Shown: positions 1 through 10,922 of the stretch, piece after piece
How the letters are laid out: every line of letters begins with the position of its first letter
Numbering within the stretch: the stretch's first letter is position 1
Origin: Burkholderiales bacterium
Lineage (GTDB): Bacteria; Pseudomonadota; Gammaproteobacteria; Burkholderiales; Usitatibacteraceae
Assembly (NCBI GenBank): GCA_017880705.1
Contig: JADGRS010000001.1
Coordinates: forward strand, 1-10,922
Length of the DNA stretch: 10,922 nt
Reading direction: 5' to 3'
Made by a program: the position numbers and the translations under genes
The notes under the pieces: model-generated
What the model was told of the DNA's origin: nothing
Seen by the model: only the letters and a program-made list of their open reading frames with translations
Database searches by the model: none

Positions 1-21
1 GTAGTCAACAAGTAACCCTAC

Positions 22-31: not shown

Positions 32-166
32 ATGGAATACGCCAAGATCGAAAACGCGCAATTGGAAACCGCTGTGAACGAAGCCGCGAATGCCCAGCTT
101 CGTGAATTGAACGACCTTCAGCTCGCCTATGTCGGCGGCGGCACGATCGAATGGGTTCCCGGCTAG
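32..166 (+). CDS. Short double-glycine-leader peptide precursor (putative bacteriocin or signal peptide)
   Basis: A complete 44-residue frame (ATG to TAG) preceded by a ribosome site. Residues 25-37 read ELNDLQLAYVGGG. This is the classical leader cut by C39 peptidases: Leu at -12, Leu at -7, Val at -4, Gly-Gly at -2/-1, counting G37 as -1. Cleavage there would leave the core TIEWVPG (38-44), or GTIEWVPG if the cut is one residue earlier. The N-terminal part is acidic and amphipathic (MEYAKIENAQ...), as leaders often are. The gene converges on an exporter that carries just such a peptidase, with 21 nt between the stop codons, so it is probably that exporter's cargo. A seven-residue core is much shorter than class II microcins and has no Cys, so a signalling peptide is as likely as a toxin. 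The motif is seen directly; processing, export and function are inferred. Confidence 0.72.
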   Translation: MEYAKIENAQLETAVNEAANAQLRELNDLQLAYVGGGTIEWVPG

Positions 167-187
167 CCGATCGACGTGGCCAGTCGT

Positions 188-2275
188 TCAAGCAACTGGT
201 GATTCGAGATTCAGATTGAGTCGCTTGCCAGTAGAAATCACAGTCTCTTCGCGGTGACTGACGATCACGACTGATAGTGATCGCCCGGACAGCGAAGAGC
301 TGATGCGCCTTTCTAGTGCCAGGTCGATTTGGTCGAACGCTTCATCGAGGAAAAGGATTTGAGGCTTCCGGTATAGCGCCCGCGCGAGCAGCACGCGTTG
401 CTTCTGCCCGCCCGAAAGCGCCATGCCGAGGCTGCCGACGATGGTGTTGTACTGCATGGGCATGGCCATGATCTCTTCGTCGATCATGGCGGCCTTCGCG
501 CATTCACGCACAAGCGCGGGATCGTGCTCGGAATCGAAGAAGCTCACGTTGTCTTCGATGGTGCCGACGAAGAGCTGGTCGTCCTGCATCACGGCGCCGA
601 TGCGGGAGCGGTACTGGGCCGGATCCCAGTCGGTGAGGTTGCGGCCGTTCACGCGCACCTCGCCCTCGGTCGCAGGCAGGAGGCCGAGCAGCACCTTGAG
701 CAGCGTGGTCTTCCCGCAACCGGAAGGCCCGACGATGGCGATGGTCTCCCCAGGCGCGATCGTCAGATTCACCCCCCGGAACACGTATCCCTCGGGCCCG
801 TAGGCGAAGCCAAGATCCTTCGCTTCCACGGTGAGCGGGCCCGTCGCGACCTCGCCGGGCAGGGCGGGCTTGTGGGTCTCCGCCTCGGCGAGCGCGATGT
901 CGGCGATGCGCTCGGCGTGCAGGTCGAGCATGCGGAACTCGTTCCACTTGTCCACGAGGTTGATCACGCGCGTGACGAAGAGGAGCTGGAAGCCGATGAA
1001 CGCGTAGAGCATCCCCACCGTGAACTGGCCGTCCATCACGAGGAGGGCGGCGAGCCATACCACGATCACGTTCTCCAGCCCGAAGATGAGCGCGTTGGCT
1101 CCCCGCTGCAGGATCCCCACGTTCTGCACGCGCACGCCCGCGTTGGTCTGGTCCACCACGAGGTTCTGGTAGGCCGAGCGGCGCTCCGACTCGCGCAGGT
1201 TCAGCTTGATCGCCATCATCCCGCGCACCGTCTCGATGAAGTGCGTCCCGGAGCGCGCCTCGTGGGCGATCTGCTCGTCGGTCGCGTAGCGCTGCGGGTA
1301 GTAGAACACCCAGCGCGCGACAGCGTAGAGAAGCGTCGCGGTCACCACGACGCCGGTGAGCATCACGCTGTAGAAGGCCATCACGACGATCGTGAGGATC
1401 ACCATCAAGCCATCGACGGCGGTCTCCACGAACGTCGCCGTGAGCGTGCGCTGGATCGCGTCCACGCTCCTGAACTTCGAGACGATGTCGCCGATGTTCC
1501 TCTTCTCGAACCACGCGAGCGGCAGCCTCAGCATGTGGTTGAAGAGCGTGGTGAGGAGCTTGAGATTGATGTTGGTGCTGAGATAGACGCCCACCCACGC
1601 GCGCACCGCCGTGACCATGACCTGGATCACCACCAGGGTGCAGAAGGCGACGCCCAGCACTGTGAGCAGATCGCGGTCGCGTCCCACCACCACGCGGTCC
1701 ACGGTGAGTTGAAGGAAGAAAGGCATCGCGATCGCGAACACTTCGAGCGCAAGGGACAGGACCAGGATCTGCGCGATCGTCCCCTTGAGCCCGGAGGCCA
1801 CGGCCAGGAGCTGCCATGACTTGATCTTCTCGCGCTCGTCCTTCTTCTGGAAGCCCGTGGTCGGCGTGAACTCCATCGCGACGCCGGTGAAATGCCGCGA
1901 GGACTCTTCGAGCGTGAGGACCCTCTTGCCGCGCGCGGGGTCGTGCACCGTGATCTTGCGGCCCGCAACCTTCGTGAGCACCACGAAATGATTCATGTCC
2001 CAGTGAAGGATTGCGGGGAGGCGCAACTTGCCGAGCGACTCGAGCGGCACCTGCACGCCGCGCGCCGTCATGCCCATGGTCTCCGCGATCTGCGCCACGT
2101 TCTTGAGCGTGATGCCCTTCAGCGAGGGCGACAGACGCACGCGCATCGCCGAGAGATCCGTGCGGTGCCCGTAGAACGACGCCACCATCGCGAGGCAGGC
2201 GATGCCGCACTCGGGCGCCTCGCTCTGGAGGATCACGGGAACGCGCGGGGAGAGGAGCTCGGAGATGAGGCCCAT
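188..2275 (-). CDS. Peptidase-containing ABC exporter (C39 domain, CvaB/RaxB type)
   Basis: A 695-residue inner-membrane exporter that removes double-glycine leaders and exports the mature peptide using ATP. The N-terminal C39 peptidase (about 1-135) has its full catalytic set: Gln17 and Cys23 in QSEAPECG, His96 in NHFVVL, Asp112 in VHDPA. The membrane domain spans roughly 155-440. The nucleotide-binding domain (about 480-695) has Walker A GPSGCGKTT (516-524), Q-loop Gln564, signature LSGGQ (620-624), Walker B ILFLDE with catalytic Glu645, and His674. The stretch after Walker B is EAFDQID rather than the common EATSxLD, a modest deviation in the D-loop. Its ATG directly abuts the stop of the upstream fusion-protein gene (TAGATG), so translation is probably coupled. 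Length and domain order are normal for the family. Members include CvaB and RaxB, but I cannot assign a specific symbol. Confidence 0.95.
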   Translation of the reverse strand: MGLISELLSPRVPVILQSEAPECGIACLAMVASFYGHRTDLSAMRVRLSPSLKGITLKNVAQIAETMGMTARGVQVPLESLGKLRLPAILHWDMNHFVVLTKVAGRKITVHDPARGKRVLTLEESSRHFTGVAMEFTPTTGFQKKDEREKIKSWQLLAVASGLKGTIAQILVLSLALEVFAIAMPFFLQLTVDRVVVGRDRDLLTVLGVAFCTLVVIQVMVTAVRAWVGVYLSTNINLKLLTTLFNHMLRLPLAWFEKRNIGDIVSKFRSVDAIQRTLTATFVETAVDGLMVILTIVVMAFYSVMLTGVVVTATLLYAVARWVFYYPQRYATDEQIAHEARSGTHFIETVRGMMAIKLNLRESERRSAYQNLVVDQTNAGVRVQNVGILQRGANALIFGLENVIVVWLAALLVMDGQFTVGMLYAFIGFQLLFVTRVINLVDKWNEFRMLDLHAERIADIALAEAETHKPALPGEVATGPLTVEAKDLGFAYGPEGYVFRGVNLTIAPGETIAIVGPSGCGKTTLLKVLLGLLPATEGEVRVNGRNLTDWDPAQYRSRIGAVMQDDQLFVGTIEDNVSFFDSEHDPALVRECAKAAMIDEEIMAMPMQYNTIVGSLGMALSGGQKQRVLLARALYRKPQILFLDEAFDQIDLALERRISSSLSGRSLSVVIVSHREETVISTGKRLNLNLESPVA

Positions 2276-3523
2276 CTAGAAGCGCCCCTTCAATTGCAGC
2301 AAGGGCTCGAAGATCCACTCGATGATCGTGCGCTTCTCGAGCAACAGGTCGCCGTTCACGAGCATCCCGGGACGCAACGCGAAATCCTGGCCGAGTGCGG
2401 TCACGTTCTGGCGGTCGAGCTTCACGTCGACGCGGTACACGGGCTCTTTCGCCGAAAGCGGCCCGATGCGCTCATTCTGCGTCCACACGTTGCGGCCGAT
2501 GTCGGTGATGACGCCGCGATACTGGCCGAAGCGCTCATACGGAAACGCTTCGTAGCGCAGCACGACCTCCTGGCCCGGCTTCACGAAGCCGATGGCGCGC
2601 GTAGGCACGAGGAGCTCGACGTGCATGCCGCTTCCCTTGGGGAGCACCGTCGCGAGCGTGGAGTCCGCGGCGATCGATGCGCCCTTGTTGACCGCGATGT
2701 TGGTGACGACGCCCGCCATCGGCGCGCGGATCACGGTCTCGCGCTTCGACTCGTTCTGGGCCATGCCTTCCTGCAGCTCACTGATCTGGCGCGCCACGCC
2801 CTCGATCTGCGCACGCGAGCGCAGCTCGATCGAGGGCTCCTCCATCTTCGCGGCTCCAAGGTCGCGCTCCAGCTGGGTACGCTGGCGTCGCAATGCCTCG
2901 AGCTTGATCTCCTGGTCGGTCTGCTCGTCCACCTTCTGCTTGATCATCGCCTCGGAGACGAAGCTCTGGCCGGCGAGGGCGCGGAAGCGATCGGCCTGAT
3001 CGCGCGCGCTCTTGATGCGCACTTCCTGCAGCTTCATCTCGCGGTCGAGTTGCGCGAGCTCGTTCTCGAGGTCGTGCACGCGCCGGCGCAGCTGCCCCAC
3101 CTGTTGAGTCCCGAGCTCGCGCCACTGCGCCTGCTCCTTCTCGAGGATCACGCGACGGTTGCGCATCTCGGCCGCGACGGCCTCGCTGGTGGAGGCGCCA
3201 ACCCCCGTGGAGCGATCGAGCGAGATCCGCGCCATCTCGTCGCCGGCCTTCACCTCGTCGCCTTCCTTGATGAGGAGGTCGGTGATGCGGCCCGAATCGG
3301 GAATGAGCACGCGGGCGGCTCCGGTATCGAGCGCGAGATAGCCCTCGACGCGTTCGCGGCGCGTGTATTGGCCCCACACGGTGACCGCGATCAGGAGGAA
3401 TGCGATGCCCGCGGCGAGGAGCGTGAAGACCCAGCCTGGCACGGGACGGGCGATGGTGGCCTCGCCGAGAAACTTCTCGCGCTGGGCGTCGATCGCCTCT
3501 TGTCGGAATAGTTGGCGGGACAT
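2276..3523 (-). CDS. HlyD/CvaA-type periplasmic adaptor (membrane fusion protein)
   Basis: A 415-residue adaptor linking the ABC exporter to an outer-membrane channel. The N-terminus (MSRQLFRQEAIDAQREKFLG) is the typical opening of CvaA/RaxA-like proteins. One membrane helix lies at about 31-50. The first lipoyl half is at about 68-103 (IPDSGRITDLLIKEGDEVKAG). A long charged helical hairpin follows at about 112-262, and the second lipoyl half is at about 266-293 (RAPMAGVVTNIAVNKG). The beta-barrel and C-terminal part include RPGMLVNGDLLLEKR. The frame stays open upstream to 3688, but that extension overlaps nhaA on the other strand and looks like no family member, so the ATG at 3523 was chosen. 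No Shine-Dalgarno precedes it. It is the first gene of a two-gene operon with the peptidase exporter; a TolC-like partner is absent and presumably encoded elsewhere. Confidence 0.9.
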   Translation of the reverse strand: MSRQLFRQEAIDAQREKFLGEATIARPVPGWVFTLLAAGIAFLLIAVTVWGQYTRRERVEGYLALDTGAARVLIPDSGRITDLLIKEGDEVKAGDEMARISLDRSTGVGASTSEAVAAEMRNRRVILEKEQAQWRELGTQQVGQLRRRVHDLENELAQLDREMKLQEVRIKSARDQADRFRALAGQSFVSEAMIKQKVDEQTDQEIKLEALRRQRTQLERDLGAAKMEEPSIELRSRAQIEGVARQISELQEGMAQNESKRETVIRAPMAGVVTNIAVNKGASIAADSTLATVLPKGSGMHVELLVPTRAIGFVKPGQEVVLRYEAFPYERFGQYRGVITDIGRNVWTQNERIGPLSAKEPVYRVDVKLDRQNVTALGQDFALRPGMLVNGDLLLEKRTIIEWIFEPLLQLKGRF

Positions 3524-3587
3524 GGGTCGCTGCGATTGTAAATCAGTGGCACCGCCAGATGCGCGCCCGGCCCCATAATCTCGTCGG
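3524..3587. promoter_or_regulatory. Divergent promoter region between the hlyD-like gene and nhaA
   Basis: Sixty-four bases separate two divergent start codons, so both promoters should lie here or within the flanking genes. On the minus strand TACAAT (3540-3535) ends 11 nt before the hlyD-like ATG. On the plus strand CATAAT (3574-3579) ends 8 nt before the nhaA ATG. Each matches the -10 consensus at five of six positions, but neither has a convincing -35 at 16-18 nt. Neither gene has a Shine-Dalgarno, so both transcripts may be almost leaderless. No operator-like palindrome was seen. Confidence 0.35.
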
Positions 3588-4949
3588 ATGAGCGAGAAAA
3601 AGTATCCTCTGGAGGCGCTCTTCGGCCGCATCCTGTCGCCGCTCGAGCAGTTCCTGCGGCAGACGGCCGCGGGCGGCATCGTCCTCATCGCGGCTGCCGC
3701 CTCCGCGCTCGTCGCCGCGACATGGCTCGGCGATGCGACCGTCCATCACGCGTGGGAACAGCGCTTCGCTCTTTCGGCCGGCGGCCGCTTCAACCTCGAT
3801 CTCACGCTGCATCACTGGGTGAACGACGCCCTGATGGCGCTCTTCTTCCTCCTCGTGGGTCTAGAGCTCAAGCGCGAGATCCTCGTGGGCGAGCTCGCTT
3901 CGCTCAAGGATGCGGCGCTTCCGGTGTTCGCCGCCGCGGGCGGCATGGTCGTTCCGGCGCTCCTCTACGCGGCCTTCAACCACGGCGCCGCCGGCGCGGC
4001 CGGGTGGGGCATCGCCACGGCGACGGACATCGCATTCGCGATCGGCATCCTCGTGATGCTCTCGGGCCGCATCCCGCGGAACCTCGTGATCTTCGTCACC
4101 GCGCTCGCGATCGCCGACGACCTCGGCGCCGTGGTCCTCATCGCCATCTTCTACACCGCGCAAATCGACATGCGGTGGATCCGCGCGGCGGGCGCGCTCT
4201 TCGTGCTGCTCCTCGCCTTCAATCGCGGCGGGATGCGCCATCCCCTGCCGTATGCGTTTGTCGGGATCCTCCTCTGGTATGCGCTGCTGCGCTCGGGAGT
4301 GCACGCGTCGATCGCGGGAGTTCTCCTCGCGATCACGATTCCGGCGCGTCCCGCCTTCACGCCTGCGCAGTTCGAGCGCCGGCTGGACGAGCTCCAGGCG
4401 GAGTTCCGCGCCGATCGCAAGGATCTCGAAACCCCGGACGATCCCTTGCGCAACCACCGCATGGCCGAGATCGCCGAGGCAGTCGAGCGCGCCGCGGGTG
4501 AGGTGCAGAGCCCCCTGCAACGCATCGAGCACGCGCTCGCGCCATGGGTCGCTTTTCTCGTGATCCCGATCTTCGCGATCGCCAATGCAGGAGTGGACCT
4601 GAAGGCGGTGCAGTGGTCCGAAGCGCTGTCGGAGAGCGTGACGCTCGGCGTCATTGCCGGCCTGGCGATCGGCAAGTTCGCGGGCGTGAGCCTCTTCAGC
4701 TGGATCGCGATCCGCCTGGGGCTGGCGAGATTGCCGAACGGCGTCGCGTGGCCCCAGCTGCTCGGCGCGGCGTGGCTCGCCGGCATCGGCTTCACGATGT
4801 CGCTCTTCATCGCCGAGCTCGCGTTCAACGACCGCGCCATGGTCGAAGAGGCAAAGCTCGGCATCCTCGTGGGCTCCTTCCTCTCGGCCGTCATCGGCCT
4901 GGCCTGGCTCTATTTCTCGGCGAGGCCCCGGGCCGAAGGAGAGGCGTAG
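3588..4949 (+). CDS. nhaA: Na+/H+ antiporter NhaA
   Basis: A 453-residue inner-membrane antiporter that expels Na+ (or Li+) in exchange for protons, serving salt and alkaline-pH homeostasis. Family signatures are clear: LFFLLVGLELKREI at about 85-98, TATDIAFAIGIL with Asp147 (equivalent to E. coli Asp133), and AIADDLGAV with the adjacent Asp177-Asp178 pair that binds the ion (E. coli Asp163/164). Lys363 in AIGKFAGV corresponds to E. coli Lys300. About a dozen hydrophobic segments are visible. Compared with the roughly 390-residue E. coli protein it has a charged insertion at about 255-312, seen in the longer NhaA versions of many bacteria. It appears to be a single-gene unit: it is divergent from the export operon, and the ars operon downstream has its own promoter. 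No Shine-Dalgarno precedes the ATG. The start is supported by the family-like N-terminus. Confidence 0.95.
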   Translation: MSEKKYPLEALFGRILSPLEQFLRQTAAGGIVLIAAAASALVAATWLGDATVHHAWEQRFALSAGGRFNLDLTLHHWVNDALMALFFLLVGLELKREILVGELASLKDAALPVFAAAGGMVVPALLYAAFNHGAAGAAGWGIATATDIAFAIGILVMLSGRIPRNLVIFVTALAIADDLGAVVLIAIFYTAQIDMRWIRAAGALFVLLLAFNRGGMRHPLPYAFVGILLWYALLRSGVHASIAGVLLAITIPARPAFTPAQFERRLDELQAEFRADRKDLETPDDPLRNHRMAEIAEAVERAAGEVQSPLQRIEHALAPWVAFLVIPIFAIANAGVDLKAVQWSEALSESVTLGVIAGLAIGKFAGVSLFSWIAIRLGLARLPNGVAWPQLLGAAWLAGIGFTMSLFIAELAFNDRAMVEEAKLGILVGSFLSAVIGLAWLYFSARPRAEGEA

Positions 4950-4989: not shown

Positions 4990-5370
4990 GTGAACAGCCG
5001 CACCGCCATCGCTTCGCTCGCCGCGCTCGCCCAGGAGTCGCGGCTTGCCATCTACCGTTTGCTGGTCGAGGCCGGGCCGACGGGCTTGTCGGTGAGCGAG
5101 ATCGGCGCCTCGCTCCATGTGTCGCCGGCGACGCTCTCGTTCCATCTCAAAGAGCTTACCCACGCGGGCCTCATCGCCGCGCGCCAGGAAGGGCGCTACA
5201 TCTTCTACTCCGCGAATTTCGCGCGAATGAACGCACTGATGAGCTATCTCGGCGAGAACTGCTGCGCCCGGGACGGCATGGATTGCGCCCCCGGATGCGC
5301 GCCGCGGGCCAAGTCCTCGTGCGCGCCCACCCAATCCCGCCGCGCTCGCCGCGGCACCCTGAAGGCCTGA
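4990..5370 (+). CDS. arsR: ArsR-family arsenite-responsive repressor
   Basis: A 126-residue SmtB/ArsR winged-helix repressor that should sit on the inverted repeat just upstream and release it when As(III) binds, turning on the operon. The core is typical: LAALAQESRLAIYRLL at about 10-25, a helix-turn-helix with recognition helix SPATLSFHLKEL at about 45-56, and a beta wing at about 60-75. The usual ELCVC-type arsenic site of the DNA-binding helix is missing. Instead five cysteines cluster near the C-terminus (Cys91, 92, 99, 103, 111), starting with NCC. This resembles the C-terminal site described for the Acidithiobacillus ferrooxidans ArsR. The start is GTG at 4990; no upstream alternative fits because the operator ends at 4988. 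There is no Shine-Dalgarno, so initiation is probably leaderless. It is followed 16 nt later by arsI. Confidence 0.9.
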   Translation: MNSRTAIASLAALAQESRLAIYRLLVEAGPTGLSVSEIGASLHVSPATLSFHLKELTHAGLIAARQEGRYIFYSANFARMNALMSYLGENCCARDGMDCAPGCAPRAKSSCAPTQSRRARRGTLKA

Positions 5371-5373
5371 CCC

Positions 5374-5379
5374 AAGGAG
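5374..5379 (+). promoter_or_regulatory. Strong Shine-Dalgarno of arsI
   Basis: AAGGAG lies 7 nt before the arsI ATG at 5387. It contrasts with the absent ribosome site of arsR, the first gene of the unit, and sets the arsI start. Confidence 0.7.
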
Positions 5380-5386
5380 CAAACCA

Positions 5387-5839
5387 ATGAAGAGATTCCA
5401 TGTGCACGTGGCCGTGCCCGATCTGCAGAAGAGCATCGGCTTCTATTCGACGATGTTCGGGGCGCAGCCGACGGTGGTGAAGGACGACTACGCGAAATGG
5501 ATGCTGGAGGATCCGCGCGTCAACTTCGCGATCTCCCAGCGCGGTGGCGCGGCCGGCGTGAACCACCTCGGATTCCAGGTGGACGAAGCCTCGGAGCTCG
5601 AGGACATCCACACGCGCCTGCAGGCCGCGGACGCAGGCGTGATGGAAGAGAAGAACGTCTCGTGCTGCTACGCCAAGTCGGACAAGTACTGGGTGACCGA
5701 TCCGTCAGGCATCGCCTGGGAATCGTTCCACAGCCTTGGCAGCGTTCCGTTCTACGACGGCGAAGCGAAAGCGGCGCCGAAGGCGGCATGCTGCGCCCCG
5801 GGCGTGAAGGAGCCCGCGCGAGCCGCCTGCTGCGGATGA
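5387..5839 (+). CDS. arsI: ArsI/CadI-type VOC-fold metalloenzyme, putative C-As lyase
   Basis: A 150-residue protein of the vicinal-oxygen-chelate fold (glyoxalase/dioxygenase family). ArsI enzymes use Fe(II) and oxygen to break the C-As bond of trivalent organoarsenicals such as methylarsenite. Two beta-alpha-beta-beta-beta modules are visible (about 1-50 and 55-120). Likely metal ligands are His5 or His7, His60 in GVNHLGF, and Glu112 in GIAWESF. The vicinal pair Cys93-Cys94 in VSCCYAKSDKYW matches the substrate-binding cysteine pair of ArsI. The C-terminal tail carries two more pairs, Cys135-136 and Cys148-149, in near-repeated AACC contexts; such Cys-rich tails may bind thiophilic metals. 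The same family includes CadI (cadmium-induced), so the substrate is not certain, but its place between arsR and arsC favours arsenic. A strong ribosome site precedes it and arsC begins 3 nt after its stop. Confidence 0.85.
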   Translation: MKRFHVHVAVPDLQKSIGFYSTMFGAQPTVVKDDYAKWMLEDPRVNFAISQRGGAAGVNHLGFQVDEASELEDIHTRLQAADAGVMEEKNVSCCYAKSDKYWVTDPSGIAWESFHSLGSVPFYDGEAKAAPKAACCAPGVKEPARAACCG

Positions 5840-5842
5840 TCC

Positions 5843-6334
5843 ATGGAAAAGGTCTACAACGTCCTTTTCCTGTGCACGGGCAATTCGGCGCGATCGATCA
5901 TGGCCGAGGTGATGCTGAATCACTTCGGCCGCGGCCGATTCAAGGCGTACTCGGCGGGGAGCCGTCCTGGAGGGTCGGTGAACCCGCTAAGCCTCGAGAC
6001 GCTGGAGAGCCTCGGCCTGCCCACGGCGGGCTTGCGCAGCAAAAGCTGGGATGAATTCGCGGCGCCGGGCTCTCCCTTGCTCGACTTCATCATCACCGTT
6101 TGCGACAACGCGGCAAGTGAAGTGTGCCCGGTATGGCCCGGCAAACCGACGACCGCTCATTGGGGCGTCGCCGATCCCGCGGCGGTCGAAGGGAGCGATC
6201 TGCAAAGGCGCGCCGCCTTCCGCGATGCGGCCGTGGTCCTGCGCCGTCGCATCGACCTTTTCTTGAGCCTGCCGTTGGAGAAGCTCGACGCGTTGTCGCT
6301 TCGAACGAGGCTTCGCGACATCGGCAAGAAGTGA
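5843..6334 (+). CDS. arsC: Arsenate reductase, LMW-phosphatase type
   Basis: A 163-residue cytoplasmic enzyme reducing As(V) to As(III) so that the efflux pump can expel it. The fold is that of low-molecular-weight tyrosine phosphatases. The P-loop CTGNSARS (11-18) has nucleophile Cys11 and Arg17, and Asp111 in GVADP is the likely general acid. Cys87 and Cys95 in VCDNAASEVCPVWPG are candidates for the redox relay. In the S. aureus pI258 enzyme the two relay cysteines are seven residues apart; here they are eight apart, so whether thioredoxin or another thiol donor regenerates it cannot be told. The start at 5843 lies 3 nt after the arsI stop with no clear ribosome site, implying translational coupling. 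The 3' end overlaps the acr3 start by 4 nt (GTGA). Confidence 0.93.
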   Translation: MEKVYNVLFLCTGNSARSIMAEVMLNHFGRGRFKAYSAGSRPGGSVNPLSLETLESLGLPTAGLRSKSWDEFAAPGSPLLDFIITVCDNAASEVCPVWPGKPTTAHWGVADPAAVEGSDLQRRAAFRDAAVVLRRRIDLFLSLPLEKLDALSLRTRLRDIGKK

Positions 6335-7380
6335 GCGAAACGCCGCAACCGTTGAGCGCGTTCGAGCGCTATCTCACCGCCTGGGTATTCCTGTGCATCG
6401 CGGCCGGCATCGTCCTCGGCCAGGCATTTCCCGCGGTGTCGGAGGCGGTCGGCCGGTTGCAGATCGCGCACGTCAACCTTCCGGTCGGCCTCCTCATCTG
6501 GCTGATGATCGTGCCGATGCTGATGAGGGTGGATTTCGGGGCGCTGCGCGAAGTCCGCCGGCATGTCCGGGGAATCGGCGTGACGCTTTTCGTGAACTGG
6601 CTGGTGAAGCCCTTCACCATGGCGCTTCTCGCCTGGATCTTCATTCGCCACCTGTTCGCGCCCTGGCTCGCGGCCTCGCAGATCGACAGCTACATCGCGG
6701 GCCTGATCCTGCTCGCGGCGGCGCCCTGCACCGCGATGGTGTTCGTCTGGAGCCGCCTGGCCCACGGCGATCCGTTGTTCACGCTCACGCAGGTCGCCCT
6801 CAACGACACCATCATGGTCTTCGCCTTCGCGCCGATCGTGGCGCTGCTGCTGGGCATCTCCAGCATCACAGTGCCGTGGGCCACGCTCGTCACCTCGGTG
6901 GTCCTCTACATCGTGATTCCCGTGGTCATCGCCCAAGGGCTGAGGCGCGCATTGCTCGCGAAGGGGCAGGGGAGCTTCGACGCCACCCTGGCGAGAATCG
7001 GCCCGTGGTCGATCGCGGCCCTGCTCGCGACCCTCGTGCTCCTCTTCGCTTTCCAGGGCGATGCGATCCTGCGGCAGCCGCTCGTGATCGCGCTTCTCGC
7101 CGTCCCCATCCTCATCCAGGTCTTCTTCAATTCGGCCCTTGCGTACGGGCTCAACCGGGCTCTCGGCGAAAAGCATTCCATCGCATGCCCTTCGGCCCTG
7201 ATCGGGGCGAGTAATTTTTTCGAGCTGGCGGTGGCTGCGGCGATCAGCCTCTTCGGCTTCGAGTCCGGCGCGGCGCTCGCCACCGTGGTGGGCGTGCTGA
7301 TCGAGGTCCCGGTCATGCTTCTCGTCGTGCGCGTGGTGAACTCGACGCGCGGCTGGTATCTCGTGGGAGAGAGGGCCTAG
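6331..7380 (+). CDS. acr3: ACR3-family arsenite efflux permease
   Basis: A 349-residue inner-membrane permease exporting As(III), the last step of the detoxification route whose earlier steps are arsI and arsC. About ten hydrophobic helices are visible from residue 13 onward. The two ACR3 hallmark residues are present: Cys133 in LAAAPCTAMVFVWS and Glu298 in GASNFFELAVA. It belongs to the BASS/ACR3 superfamily, not the unrelated 12-helix ArsB. The chosen start is GTG at 6331 (VSETPQPLSAFERYL), which overlaps the arsC stop by 4 nt and gives the usual family length. The frame is open further upstream to 6124, but that stretch lies wholly inside arsC and is not ACR3-like. No terminator is evident after its stop; lexA begins 53 nt downstream with its own promoter. 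Confidence 0.93.
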   Translation: MSETPQPLSAFERYLTAWVFLCIAAGIVLGQAFPAVSEAVGRLQIAHVNLPVGLLIWLMIVPMLMRVDFGALREVRRHVRGIGVTLFVNWLVKPFTMALLAWIFIRHLFAPWLAASQIDSYIAGLILLAAAPCTAMVFVWSRLAHGDPLFTLTQVALNDTIMVFAFAPIVALLLGISSITVPWATLVTSVVLYIVIPVVIAQGLRRALLAKGQGSFDATLARIGPWSIAALLATLVLLFAFQGDAILRQPLVIALLAVPILIQVFFNSALAYGLNRALGEKHSIACPSALIGASNFFELAVAAAISLFGFESGAALATVVGVLIEVPVMLLVVRVVNSTRGWYLVGERA

Positions 7381-7405: not shown

Positions 7406-7432
7406 ATCGCGGCAGGTGATAGGATTATCACC
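7397..7432 (+). promoter_or_regulatory. lexA promoter with palindromic operator
   Basis: GGTGATAGGATTATCACC (7415-7432) is a perfect palindrome with 7-bp arms and a 4-nt centre, ending 1 nt before the lexA ATG. A promoter fits: TTGCCG (7397-7402), a 17-nt spacer, TAGGAT (7420-7425) at the centre of the palindrome. Transcription would start at about 7432, making the message leaderless. A repressor bound here would cover the -10, so LexA autoregulation is the simplest reading. The sequence is not the CTGT-N8-ACAG box of E. coli and most beta/gammaproteobacterial LexA proteins. Confidence 0.6.
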
Positions 7433-7433
7433 C

Positions 7434-8042
7434 ATGCCAATCTCCCTCACACCCCGGCAAGCCGAGATCCTGGAGGCCATCCGGGAGTACATCGCGCAGC
7501 ACCATCGCCCCCCCTCGCATCCCGAGCTCGCCAGGATGATGGGGCTGGCTTCCACCAATGGCGTCTTCAAGCACCTGGCTGCGCTGCAGAAGAAGGGCGC
7601 GATCGAGCTTTCGCCCGGATTGGCGCGCGGCATTCGCGTGAAAGGGCCGGCCGGGCTTCCGTTGATCGGGCGCGTCGCCGCGGGCAGCCCCATGCTCGCC
7701 ATCGAAAATCTCCTCGGCCACTATCCGATCGATCCGTCGCTTTTCACTCCGCGCGCCGATTACCTTCTGCAGGTGCGCGGCCTCAGCATGAAGGACGAAG
7801 GCATCCTCGACGGCGATTGGCTGGTGGTCCACCGCACCAGCGAAGCGAAGAGCGGCCAGCTCGTCGTCGCGCGCATCGGCGAGGATGTGACCGTGAAGCG
7901 GCTCAAGATGCGCGGCCACAAGGCCGAGCTCATTCCCGCCAACCGCGATTTCGAGACGCTGCACCTCGATCTTCACCACGACACGCTCGCGATCGAGGGC
8001 ATCGCGGTCGGGGTCATCCGCAACCTGCACGCGCGCGCATGA
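7434..8042 (+). CDS. lexA: LexA-type SOS repressor (cassette-associated)
   Basis: A 202-residue repressor, the same length as E. coli LexA, controlling DNA-damage genes and inactivated by RecA-stimulated self-cleavage. The N-terminal winged helix-turn-helix covers about 1-65. The cleavage site is Ala83-Gly84 in GRVAAGSP. The serine-lysine dyad is Ser118 (GLSMK) and Lys155 (VTVKRL). The recognition helix reads STNGVFKHL (40-48), where E. coli has SPNAAEEHL, so its DNA target should differ, in keeping with the unusual palindrome upstream. ATG at 7434 gives the family N-terminus (MPISLTPRQAEIL); a GTG at 7416 lies inside the palindrome and is unlikely. It heads the imuA-imuB-dnaE2 cassette, an arrangement known for LexA2-type repressors in other proteobacteria. 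A second, canonical LexA may exist elsewhere in the genome. Its stop overlaps the imuA start (ATGA). Confidence 0.93.
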   Translation: MPISLTPRQAEILEAIREYIAQHHRPPSHPELARMMGLASTNGVFKHLAALQKKGAIELSPGLARGIRVKGPAGLPLIGRVAAGSPMLAIENLLGHYPIDPSLFTPRADYLLQVRGLSMKDEGILDGDWLVVHRTSEAKSGQLVVARIGEDVTVKRLKMRGHKAELIPANRDFETLHLDLHHDTLAIEGIAVGVIRNLHARA

Positions 8043-8731
8043 AGGCCACGGTCGCCGAGCTCACGCAGCTGCCGGGCGTTTGGCGCGGCGGCGAGCTCGA
8101 TCAAGTCCCCCGCGGCGTCGTTTCGACGGGGCATGCCGCGCTCGATCGCGAGCTGCCCGGGGGAGGCTGGCCCACCGGCACGCTTTCGGAAGTGCTGCAC
8201 GATGCGGTGGGCATCGGCGAGATCGGTTTTCTCGCGGGCGCCATCGCTCGCGCCACCCAGGGCGATCCCGATCGCATGGTCGCTTGGGTCAACCCTCCGC
8301 ATCTTCCCTATGCGCCTTCGCTGGCGCACGCCGGCATCCCGCTCGCGCGGTGCCTGGTCCTGCGTCCCGCCAACAAGGAAGACGCGTTGTGGGCGGCCGA
8401 ACAGGCGCTGCGTTCCGGCGCATGCGGCGCGGTGCTTCTCTGGCTTGCCCACGATGAATACGCGTGGCTGCGCCGCTTGCAGATGGCCGCGCAAGCGGGC
8501 CGCTCGATGGCGGTCCTCTTCCGTTCGACCGCGGCGGAGCGCCTGTCCACGCCCGCTCATTTGCGCGTGATCCTCGAGCGGGAAGGCGGCGTGCTCAAAT
8601 TGCGCATTCCGAAGCGGCGCGGACCTCCGCTGACGGCGCCGATCGCGCTCGACATCGGCGGCCGCACTGCTTCCCGCCGTATTTCTCCGCATTGGGCCGC
8701 GCAGAAAACAGTCCATCGAGCAGTCGCTTGA
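8039..8731 (+). CDS. imuA: ImuA, RecA-like translesion synthesis accessory protein
   Basis: A 230-residue accessory factor of the ImuA-ImuB-DnaE2 mutasome, which copies damaged DNA with low fidelity during the SOS response. The protein is RecA/SulA-like. STGHAALDRELPGGGWPTGTLSEVL (split here as STGHAALDREL at 29-39 and PGGGWPTGTLSEVL at 40-53) aligns with the RecA nucleotide-binding start, but the P-loop Gly-Lys-Thr is degenerate, as usual in proteobacterial ImuA. CGAVLLWL at about 131-138 corresponds to the Walker B strand. The proline and arginine-rich C-terminal region (IPKRRGPP) is also typical. The start ATG at 8039 overlaps the lexA stop by 4 nt, and imuB starts 12 nt after its stop, so the genes form one transcription unit under LexA control. 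Length and position agree with other cassettes. Confidence 0.9.
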   Translation: MKATVAELTQLPGVWRGGELDQVPRGVVSTGHAALDRELPGGGWPTGTLSEVLHDAVGIGEIGFLAGAIARATQGDPDRMVAWVNPPHLPYAPSLAHAGIPLARCLVLRPANKEDALWAAEQALRSGACGAVLLWLAHDEYAWLRRLQMAAQAGRSMAVLFRSTAAERLSTPAHLRVILEREGGVLKLRIPKRRGPPLTAPIALDIGGRTASRRISPHWAAQKTVHRAVA

Positions 8732-8734
8732 GGG
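8730..8734 (+). promoter_or_regulatory. Shine-Dalgarno of imuB
   Basis: GAGGG spans the imuA stop codon and lies 9 nt before the imuB GTG at 8744. It supports the GTG start (MLWIALELP after initiation) and coupling to imuA. Confidence 0.45.
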
Positions 8735-8743
8735 CGCATCGCC

Positions 8744-10228
8744 GTGCTCTGGATCGCGCTCGAGCTGCCCTCATTGCCCCTGCAAATCGCGGAGCGCGCG
8801 GGCGCCTCGCGCGAGCCGCTCGTGATTTCCGAGGGAACCGTGCAACGGCCTTTGGTGGCGTGCCCCAATGAGGCCGCAAGGCGCGCGGGCATTCATGAAG
8901 GCCAATCGGTAGCCGCGGCGAAGGCGCTCGCGGGAGACTTGCGCGTCCTGCCGCGCGATGAAAACGTCGAGCGCGAAACGATCGAGCGGCTCGCCGCATG
9001 GGCCGGACAATTCACGCCGATGGTGAGCGTCGACGGGCAGGGCATCGTCCTCGAGATCGAGGCAAGCCTGAAGCTCTTCGAGGGGCACGCGAAGCTCACG
9101 GGCGCGATCCAGCGCGGCGTGCGCGAGATCGGGCTGCATGCCGCTCTCGGCATCGCGCCGACGGCGCTGGCGGCGCGCCTCTTCGCGCGCGCCGAAGCAC
9201 GGGGCTTGCAGGTGCGCGCCTGCGTCGCGCCCGCCGATCTTCGCCAGCGTCTCGCCGATCTCCCTCTCTTTCTCCTCGACTGGCCCGGGAAGACTCTCGC
9301 GCACCTGGCCGATCTCGGCGTGCTGCGGCTGCGCGACATGCTCGAGCTTCCCGCGGAAGGCATCGCGAAGCGCTTCGGTCCCGAGATCGTCGCTTCGCTC
9401 GACCGCCTCATGGGGAAGCTTCCGGATCCACGGGAGCCCTATGCGCCGCCGCCGAGGTTTCGCTCGCGTATCGAGCTCCCCGCGGAAGCCGACGGCGTCG
9501 AAGCGCTGCTTTTCCCGCTGCGCCGATTGCTCGCGGAATTCGAAGGCGCGATGCGCGCACGCGGCTCGGGCGTGCAGCGCCTCGAGCTCGCGCTCGATCA
9601 TGGGCGCAGGTCGCGCACTCGCGTGATGCTCGACTTCTCTTCGCCCGAGCGCGAAGCCGATTTCATCCTTGCCATCGCGCGCGAGAAGCTCGGGCGGCTG
9701 ACCCTCGCGGCGCCGACCCTCGCGCTCGGCCTGCGCGCCGAAGCGCTGCTTGCCTACGTGCCCCGTGAAGCGACGTGGCTTCCAGGCGCGCGCGAGCTGG
9801 CCCTCGATCGGGAAAGGCTCCTCGAGCGTCTCGCCGCGCGCCTGGGAAAAGATCGCGTGTTCGGCATCGCGATCGCCGACGACCACCGGCCCGAAAATGG
9901 TGTCAGGTACGCATTCTCGCAAGCTGCCGCGAAAAATGCGCAACTTGCCCAGGTTCAGAGGAAGTCCGTACCTGACACCATTTTCGCGCAGCGGCCCACT
10001 TGGCTGCTGCATCGGCCCCAGCGCCTCATCGCGCAGGAGGGCAATCCGAGCTACCAGGGCGCGCTCGAATTGATCGCAGGCCCCGAGCGAATCGAGGCGG
10101 GGTGGTGGGACGGCGACGAGGTGAGCCGCGATTACTACGTGGCGGCGAATCCGCGGGGCGAGACCTTCTGGATCTATCGCGAGCATCGCGGCGCGCAAGC
10201 CTGGTACATGCATGGAGTGTTCGCATGA
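8744..10228 (+). CDS. imuB: ImuB, inactive Y-family polymerase homologue of the mutasome
   Basis: A 494-residue Y-family-like protein that acts as the adaptor of the ImuA-ImuB-DnaE2 mutasome rather than as a polymerase. The N-terminal LWIALELPSLPLQ replaces the catalytic-Asp motif of DinB. The central VSVDGQGIVLEIEASLKLFEG region (about 95-114, plus the following Gly) holds Asp97 but lacks the SIDE pair, so polymerase activity is not expected. The helix-hairpin-helix region lies at about 183-222. The C-terminal domain ends with YYVAANPRGETFWIYRE and WYMHGVFA, typical of ImuB. Residues 384-415 are encoded by a palindromic repeat that fills the linker between HRPE and RPTWLL without breaking the frame. 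A standard QLxLF-like sliding-clamp motif is not obvious; the stretch REATWLPG (341-348) is where I would look. Start: GTG at 8744. Its stop overlaps a six-codon frame leading to dnaE2. Confidence 0.92.
   Translation: MLWIALELPSLPLQIAERAGASREPLVISEGTVQRPLVACPNEAARRAGIHEGQSVAAAKALAGDLRVLPRDENVERETIERLAAWAGQFTPMVSVDGQGIVLEIEASLKLFEGHAKLTGAIQRGVREIGLHAALGIAPTALAARLFARAEARGLQVRACVAPADLRQRLADLPLFLLDWPGKTLAHLADLGVLRLRDMLELPAEGIAKRFGPEIVASLDRLMGKLPDPREPYAPPPRFRSRIELPAEADGVEALLFPLRRLLAEFEGAMRARGSGVQRLELALDHGRRSRTRVMLDFSSPEREADFILAIAREKLGRLTLAAPTLALGLRAEALLAYVPREATWLPGARELALDRERLLERLAARLGKDRVFGIAIADDHRPENGVRYAFSQAAAKNAQLAQVQRKSVPDTIFAQRPTWLLHRPQRLIAQEGNPSYQGALELIAGPERIEAGWWDGDEVSRDYYVAANPRGETFWIYREHRGAQAWYMHGVFA
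9892..9986. repeat. 95-bp palindromic repeat element inside imuB (REP/MITE-like)
   Basis: CGAAAATGGTGTCAGGTACG (9892-9911) and its exact reverse complement (9967-9986) form a perfect 20-bp inverted repeat around 55 nt. Inside is a second, imperfect hairpin: GCAAGCTGC (9919-9927) pairs with GCAACTTGC (9940-9948) with one mismatch. Nested hairpins of this kind are characteristic of REP/BIME or MITE-like elements. It keeps the imuB frame and encodes about residues 384-415 in a linker. It shares TGGTGTCAG with the palindrome in dnaE2. No flanking target duplication was obvious. Confidence 0.8.
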
Positions 10229-10245
10229 GCGAATCGGGCCGCTGA
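10225..10245 (+). other. Six-codon frame joining imuB to dnaE2
   Basis: ATG at 10225 overlaps the imuB stop (ATGA) and opens MSESGR followed by TGA at 10243-10245. It is in the same frame as dnaE2, whose ATG directly follows (TGAATG). It could act as a translational relay from imuB to dnaE2. Alternatively it is the old dnaE2 start, cut off by a stop codon, since related DnaE2 proteins often begin a few residues earlier with an MSx-type start. Confidence 0.35.
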
Positions 10246-10922
10246 ATGATCCCCTGCTATGCGGAGCTGCATTGCCTCACCAACTACACCTTCCTGCGGG
10301 GTGCGTCGGATCCCGAGGAGCTCGTGCGCCGCGCGTCGAGGCTAGGGTATCGCGCGCTCGCCATCACCGACGAGTGCTCCGTCGCCGGCATCGTGCGCGC
10401 GCACACGGCGGCGAAGGAAGTCGGCCTGAAGCTCATCATCGGCACGGAGATCACGCTCGTCGACGGATTGAAGCTCGTCCTCCTCGCGACCCATATCCGC
10501 GGCTACGAGACGATGTGCGAGCTCATCACCACGGGCCGCCGTGCCGCGCCCAAGGGCGAATACCGCCTGTCGCGCGAAGACATCCCTGGCGCGCCCGAGG
10601 GCCTGCAGGCCCTCTGGCTCCCCGGAAAACTGGTGTCAGAGACCAGTTTTTGCGAAGCGGAGTGGGTGGCGAAGACATTCCCGGGGGGCGCCTGGATCGC
10701 GATCGAGCTTCACCGGGGGCCGGACGACGCGCGGCGCGTCGAGACACTCGAAGCGATCGGCGCGAAGCTCGGCATCACCTGCGTCGCGGCGGGCGACGTG
10801 CACATGCACGAGCGCACGCGCAAGAAACTCCAGGACCTGATGACCGCGATCCGCCACAAATGCCCGCTCGCCGAAGTGGGCATGAAGCTCCAGCCCAATG
10901 CGGAGAGATACGCGCGTTTTTT
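10246..10922 (+). CDS. dnaE2: Error-prone DNA polymerase DnaE2 (ImuC), 5' part, cut by the window end
   Basis: The first 225 codons of a C-family polymerase of roughly a thousand residues, the catalytic member of the SOS mutasome. The N-terminus (YAELHCLTNYTFLRGAS, 5-21) is the DnaE2 form of the PHP domain. LAITDECSVAGIVRAH at about 38-53, LIIGTEITL at about 65-73 and AGDVHMHERTRKKLQD at about 182-197 follow as in the family. It ends in LQPNAERYARF at the window edge. The ATG at 10246 directly follows a TGA in the same frame, so no longer start is available without reading through it. Residues 128-135 (KLVSETSF) are encoded by a short palindrome in a loop that varies between DnaE2 proteins. 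Last visible gene of the lexA-imuA-imuB-dnaE2 unit. The frame is open throughout the visible part. Confidence 0.93.
   Translation, partial: MIPCYAELHCLTNYTFLRGASDPEELVRRASRLGYRALAITDECSVAGIVRAHTAAKEVGLKLIIGTEITLVDGLKLVLLATHIRGYETMCELITTGRRAAPKGEYRLSREDIPGAPEGLQALWLPGKLVSETSFCEAEWVAKTFPGGAWIAIELHRGPDDARRVETLEAIGAKLGITCVAAGDVHMHERTRKKLQDLMTAIRHKCPLAEVGMKLQPNAERYARF
10626..10650. repeat. 25-bp palindromic repeat inside dnaE2
   Basis: AAAACTGGT (10626-10634) and ACCAGTTTT (10642-10650) are perfect 9-bp arms around GTCAGAG. The left half contains TGGTGTCAG, the same core as the imuB element, and both are flanked by A/T runs at the palindrome ends (AAAA...TTTT), which stand out in this GC-rich sequence. 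It is in frame and encodes KLVSETSF at residues 128-135. It looks like a shorter member of the same dispersed repeat family. Confidence 0.65.

Follow-up and report, generated by a model that had tools for sequence, protein, structure and literature searches.

RRNPP systems, above all Rap-Phr and NprR-NprX of Bacillota, are the closest known quorum-sensing counterparts of the system described here, and peptide quorum sensing through a cytosolic receptor with tetratricopeptide repeats (TPRs) has been described for Gram-positive bacteria. The present system is represented in part in a stretch of 10,922 nucleotides (the window; G000:C11:1–10922) at the start of contig C11 of a metagenome-assembled genome (MAG; 509 contigs, 87% complete) of a Burkholderiales bacterium of the Usitatibacteraceae. 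The window holds the gene of a 44-residue double-glycine (GG) precursor peptide and, facing it, the gene of a C39 peptidase-containing exporter; related loci contain in addition a gene for a TPR-HD-GYP protein. We propose, with a probability of about 0.68, that the precursor yields a secreted heptapeptide pheromone, which is re-imported and bound by the TPR-HD-GYP protein and thereby sets the level of cyclic di-GMP (c-di-GMP), one of the major signals that decide between a motile and a sessile lifestyle.

Comparison with the RRNPP systems revealed that (i) the RRNPP hosts are Bacillota, whereas the present system is Gram-negative; (ii) RRNPP peptides leave through Sec or PptAB and are then proteolysed (covered in part by the accessible portion of PMC7595303), whereas the GG leader and the C39 exporter do not, by their sequences, fit Sec or PptAB export with trimming outside the cell; (iii) the RRNPP output domain is a helix-turn-helix (HTH) or a three-helix domain (likewise covered in part by that portion), whereas an HD-GYP domain lies C-terminal to the TPRs here and no HTH was detected by Pfam in the 7 TPR-HD-GYP proteins scanned; and (iv) the present system, unlike RRNPP, often has several copies of one core. 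Shared with RRNPP are the propeptide gene adjoining the receptor gene and a superhelical Rap/NprR-like TPR domain (on a predicted model). Mature RRNPP peptides have 5–10 residues; the core predicted here would have 6–7 residues in all 121 relatives read. The system would work like RRNPP, but we do not file it as RRNPP because its output domain and its export route differ.

The precursor gene (positions 32–166 including the stop codon, plus strand) was identified by reading of the open reading frame (ORF), by database matches, and by a profile match. Its complete product, MEYAKIENAQLETAVNEAANAQLRELNDLQLAYVGGGTIEWVPG, consists of the leader MEYAKIENAQLETAVNEAANAQLRELNDLQLAYVGGG, the predicted cut, and TIEWVPG. 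The leader (32–142), which ends in GGG (LNDLQLAYVGGG), was delimited by alignment as the recognition and cleavage region, and the predicted seven-residue core (143–163) by the core length in relatives; a ribosome-binding-like stretch, GGAGAG, was read at 22–27 of the same strand. Thirteen other database proteins resemble the window peptide at 74–88% identity, and a profile, of whose 27 rows the window peptide is one, matches it with an E-value of 5.6e-18, while no Pfam or NCBIfam family was found for it at E ≤ 1. The double-glycine precursor that the original prediction had read from the letters is thus confirmed as an ORF with homologues, and an ORF arising by chance was rejected on the database relatives, the profile matches, the family size, and the pairing counts given below. 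The register that it had proposed, with the cut after GGG, is supported by variants: ISGG/EIVIAY stands beside IGGG/DIVIAY in one locus, and AGG and GCG variants also occur. The sub-type of TIEWVPG also includes MIDWIPA, MIDWLPA, and TIEWQPA. Because the window begins at a contig edge, the left neighbour of the peptide gene is lost. The nine bases TAGTCAACA at 2–10 (plus strand) recur just behind one array copy in locus L064 (1 of the 20 array copies listed), a weak hint that a further precursor may have been truncated at the contig end before the window precursor.

The exporter gene (188–2275, minus strand) is convergent with the precursor gene, and the 2 stop codons face each other across 21 bases. 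Its 695-residue product exceeds the Pfam cut-offs for PF03412, PF00664, and PF00005, contains the Walker A and LSGGQ motifs, and has all 4 catalytic residues (Q17, C23, H96, and D112) that had been claimed for it. It therefore has the make-up of a peptidase-containing ABC transporter (PCAT), that is to say, a C39 peptidase with an intact catalytic set fused to an ABC permease and ATPase. An HlyD-type membrane fusion protein (2276–3688, minus strand; Pfam) is encoded next to it, and the N-termini of relatives suggest the MSRQLFRQEAID methionine near 3523 as its true start.

A family profile retrieved 822 proteins at E ≤ 1e-3 among 5.8 billion sequences. The predicted core has 7 residues in 117 and 6 residues in 4 of the 121 relatives read (the best 120 of the 822 matches and P0005); eligible proteins had about 24–77 residues, so that longer cores could appear, but the choice of the best-scoring rows may bias the sample towards the typical length. 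These 121 relatives carry 64 different cores with the trend [I/S/C]-G-[D/E]-V-[V/I]-[F/V/W]-[G/A]. Named relatives are mostly from Usitatibacter (P0007, P0019, and P0227), and one peptide (P0170) comes from a MAG labelled Gemmatimonadaceae. When 61 genomes were searched with the peptide, 15 contained a match at E ≤ 1, and 27 of the 30 places adjoin a related exporter; profile matches below an E-value of 0.003 in these 61 genomes were confined to the 28 genomes of the family, the best match elsewhere (E 0.0034) lying within a 759-residue open frame. Absence of a homologous leader near related exporters had been named as a refutation of the prediction. Among the 80 exporter loci returned, the 31 closest (63–84% identity; L061–L090 and L098) include 20 with such leaders, and short-core GG peptides of this kind are present at none of the remaining 49 (45–50% identity; 594 kb).

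At 18 of the 20 peptide-bearing close loci, a gene of about 585–655 codons (cut by the contig end in two) lies beyond the peptide array, and the other 2 loci, L069 and L085, stop at a contig edge. The encoded protein has TPR repeats followed by a C-terminal HD-GYP domain (Pfam; 7 of 7 scanned). Among the 11 close loci without peptides, 9 have no such gene, L079 has the gene, cut on the upstream side, and L080 has a distant fragment. The close exporter homologues at L077, L078, and L082 have neighbours that by eye resemble tpiA and nuo genes, and neither peptide nor receptor was recognised within these loci.

Counted from the receptor side with profiles built from 35 peptides, a peptide lies within 1.6 kb at 39 of 45 TPR-HD-GYP loci, or at 37 of 43 once L234 and L235, which were fetched for a peptide hit, are excluded; 15 of the 39 positive loci (L068, L072, L073, L075, L086, L175, L187, L210–L215, L234, and L235) contributed no peptide to the profiles. 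The 6 loci without a peptide comprise 2 cut at a contig end (L079 and L193) and 4 misses (L180, L184, L189, and L190). By contrast, none of the 16 loci (113 kb) whose HD-GYP gene has another architecture carries a short-core GG peptide, and TPRs were found in none of the 10 control proteins scanned with Pfam. By a hand tally of the 28 family genomes, 20 have both partners (G001 being scored as such through L234), 2 only the peptide, 2 only the receptor (G013 and G021), and 4 neither (Fisher p 0.0096). The peptide-only genomes are the window's own and G012, and in each the contig concerned is short or cut. Pairs also exist beyond the family: four genomes of a single genus carry them, and a further genome has three. 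Of 399 genomes of the order, 15 gave a match, 9 being family members, and the match in G326 is a response regulator without TPRs and without a peptide.

The receptor of the window peptide would have to be deduced from relatives, as the window holds only the peptide and the exporter components of the system. A search of the window's MAG for the receptor gene found none: its 3 matches cover the HD-GYP part only (best identity 46%), and therefore the gene is either lost at a contig end or absent. The closest relative, G003, whose exporter is 84% identical, has four peptides and a receptor. This third partner, which the original prediction had not seen, points to a specific signalling mechanism.

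The arrays in relatives hold up to six precursors, for example four with IGDTII/IGNTII, six with xGDxxW[GA], and three each with LGAVSFY, QAVMVFL, and SGNAIFG; the L217 array has five GGDVFVG-like and the L214 array six EAVGTTY-like cores. To assess selection, 16 arrays were used to compare the core with the 20 residues before GGG. They comprise 50 copies, 49 of which have start and stop codons where expected, the second L069 copy being the exception. L066 and L214 were omitted from the means because their leaders are identical. In the 14 informative arrays, the mean identity is 0.93 for the core and 0.55 for the leader, and the core is more alike than the leader in all 14 (Wilcoxon p 1.2e-4). 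In the cores, 120 codon differences are synonymous and 59 nonsynonymous, compared with 232 and 557 in the leaders; the Fisher p of 2e-20 for this contrast is descriptive only because pairs within one array are not independent. Array copies are thus held alike as protein despite divergence of their DNA, as expected of a single dosage-amplified product. Against this stands L064, whose core differences run contrary to the trend (39 amino-acid-changing and 16 synonymous), and identity in L214 is slightly lower for the core (0.95) than for the leader (1.00). Conservation of the core, the lack of which had been the other stated refutation, accordingly holds within loci, whereas the core varies between species. 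Together with the leaders near exporters, the conservation within arrays supports the proposal that the product is a signal peptide secreted by the cell or belongs to a class of small export products not yet described. Two precursor copies are incomplete: at L073 (10283–10485) the ORF reaches the contig end three residues past GGG, and the second copy at L069 (4190–4320) is broken, with a stop codon right behind the start and its core kept.

These cores also bear on what else the product may be. Bacteriocins typically have GG leaders and C39 exporters, and the cores could accordingly be short hydrophobic antimicrobial or fratricide peptides regulated by the HD-GYP protein, but the length of 6–7 residues in every relative read, the near-identity of array copies, and the existence of peptide-receptor pairs with no exporter nearby all speak against it; on core length and pairing, we consider the bacteriocin reading very unlikely. 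Class II microcins share with the window a GG leader and a C39 exporter with an HlyD partner, but their cores have tens of residues. Short GG cores can also serve as substrates of ribosomally synthesized and post-translationally modified peptide pathways, and a core acting as the scaffold of a modified product seems the least probable of the alternatives; the weak point against it is that no modifying enzyme was noticed beside the arrays, which were inspected by eye with few genes profile-scanned. PCAT-exported GG peptides of pneumococcal rtg and four small secreted proteins of Synechococcus elongatus likewise have a GG leader and several peptides per locus (accessible portions of PMC7018657 and PMC4997328), but the cores here are only 6–7 residues long and near-identical within a locus. 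According to the accessible portion of PMC7595303, the rtg pheromone RtgS leaves through PptAB and not as a GG peptide.

The TPR-HD-GYP loci fall into 2 arrangements. Type I loci have the peptide and receptor genes in divergent orientation, except at L072, whose peptide gene shares the strand of the receptor gene and lies downstream of it. Type II loci have the receptor, then a GerE-type regulator and, about 1 kb downstream, a convergent peptide with a core like [DE]xxPxW, and exporter matches lie on other contigs or more than 0.5 Mb away. The intervening protein (about 320–346 residues) was a GerE-HTH protein at all 4 loci scanned (L174, L179, L187, and L191), with no second Pfam domain above cut-off, and it could be an output regulator. 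Tandem TPR-HD-GYP genes lie by one array at L061–L065 and L217, the second being about 31–40% identical to the receptor of strain GR16-43.

The predicted model of the GR16-43 receptor (P0015, not a window protein) was compared with the PDB by VIA-align, and the top six rows for its TPR part are Rap proteins, with other TPR proteins close behind. Its output domain resembles the HD-GYP phosphodiesterases, such as 4mcw and PA4781 (4r8z): it is 40% identical to 4mcw over 195 aligned residues, and the HD, HHE, and GYP motifs and the metal ligands are kept. Residues H415, H447, D448, H476, H502, H503, and D531 are present in 58 of 58 aligned domains, E504 in 48, and D507 in 49. In comparison with 4mcw and PA4781, the present proteins have a TPR sensor of about 340 residues, and the aligned type II copies read HHA or HHT. 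We predict from these residues that the TPR-HD-GYP protein is of the c-di-GMP phosphodiesterase type.

It is conceivable, though unlikely, that the peptide is a secreted signal sensed by another protein and that the TPR-HD-GYP protein only controls its expression or export through c-di-GMP. The divergent arrangement of the genes would be in keeping with a regulatory role, and type II loci carry the GerE regulator between receptor and peptide. Mantel tests of receptor divergence against core divergence are in line with this as well, as they show no preference for the TPR part (r 0.63 for TPR and 0.50 for HD overall, 0.59 and 0.58 within type I, and 0.40 and 0.40 within type II); because HD correlates too, we rejected the correlation as an argument specific to the TPR. 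However, HD-GYP enzymes of other architecture lack such peptides altogether (0 of 16), and paralogous TPR-HD-GYP genes with no exporter nearby have their own, distinct core type.

For direct sensing of a secreted and re-imported peptide, the pairing and the selection on the core are observations, and we infer the steps of export, import, binding, and enzyme action. Judging from the genes, motifs, and catalytic residues, the window ORF would encode the precursor of a linear pheromone; the C39 exporter would cut after GGG and, with its HlyD partner and a presumed TolC-type channel, release TIEWVPG. Uptake would probably proceed through an oligopeptide permease; Opp-type binding proteins number 9–16 in each of the 6 genomes searched, which is common and hence not discriminating. 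In the cytosol, the peptide may bind in the groove of the Rap/NprR-like TPR domain and switch the HD-GYP domain, and hence the c-di-GMP level. Multiple copies encoding one core would raise the dose of a single signal, species would differ in their core, and paralogous receptors of one genome would use their own peptides. Alternatively, the TPR-HD-GYP protein might sense the uncleaved precursor inside the cell and report export capacity, with no re-import. In its favour, the receptor and the precursor are located in the same compartment, C-terminal peptides are bound by TPR grooves in other proteins, and none of the genes recognised at the loci is an import gene. Nevertheless, a conserved C-terminus of 6–7 residues behind a cleavage site and a varying leader fits recognition of the free core, and reporting export by means of arrays beside the exporter would be peculiar; we regard this alternative as improbable. 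With slightly less confidence than in the pheromone itself, we favour a Gram-negative pheromone class of C39-exported, multi-copy heptapeptides that are read directly by TPR-HD-GYP proteins, with no membrane sensor and with pairs diverging in the manner of Rap-Phr.

Signals of Pseudomonadota are typically small molecules made by enzymes, according to the accessible portion of an RRNPP survey (PMC10075063). If true, the proposed system would give Gram-negative bacteria an analogous peptide language that feeds straight into c-di-GMP, and this language is probably undescribed. No description of TPR-HD-GYP proteins with GG peptides was found in open PMC titles and abstracts, a scope outside which most subscription papers and all bioRxiv preprints lie, and the accessible portion of an Azoarcus paper (PMC3262810) makes no link between GG peptides and HD-GYP proteins. 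The proposal is testable, since 7-mers corresponding to the predicted ligands can be made by synthesis and a complete locus seems to be present in Usitatibacter rugosus DSM 104443.

The remainder of the window (plus strand) encodes an NhaA-type Na+/H+ antiporter (3588–4949; PF06965) and 2 gene rows. The first (4990–7380) comprises an ArsR-type regulator, a glyoxalase-family protein, a low-molecular-weight phosphatase-family protein, and an SBF-family transporter and resembles an arsenic-resistance operon, in which we take the phosphatase-family protein to be ArsC-like and the transporter ACR3-like. The second (7416–10922) resembles an SOS mutasome cassette and comprises LexA, a Pfam-less protein in the ImuA position, an IMS-family protein, presumably ImuB-like, and the start of a PHP-domain DNA polymerase, presumably DnaE2-like.
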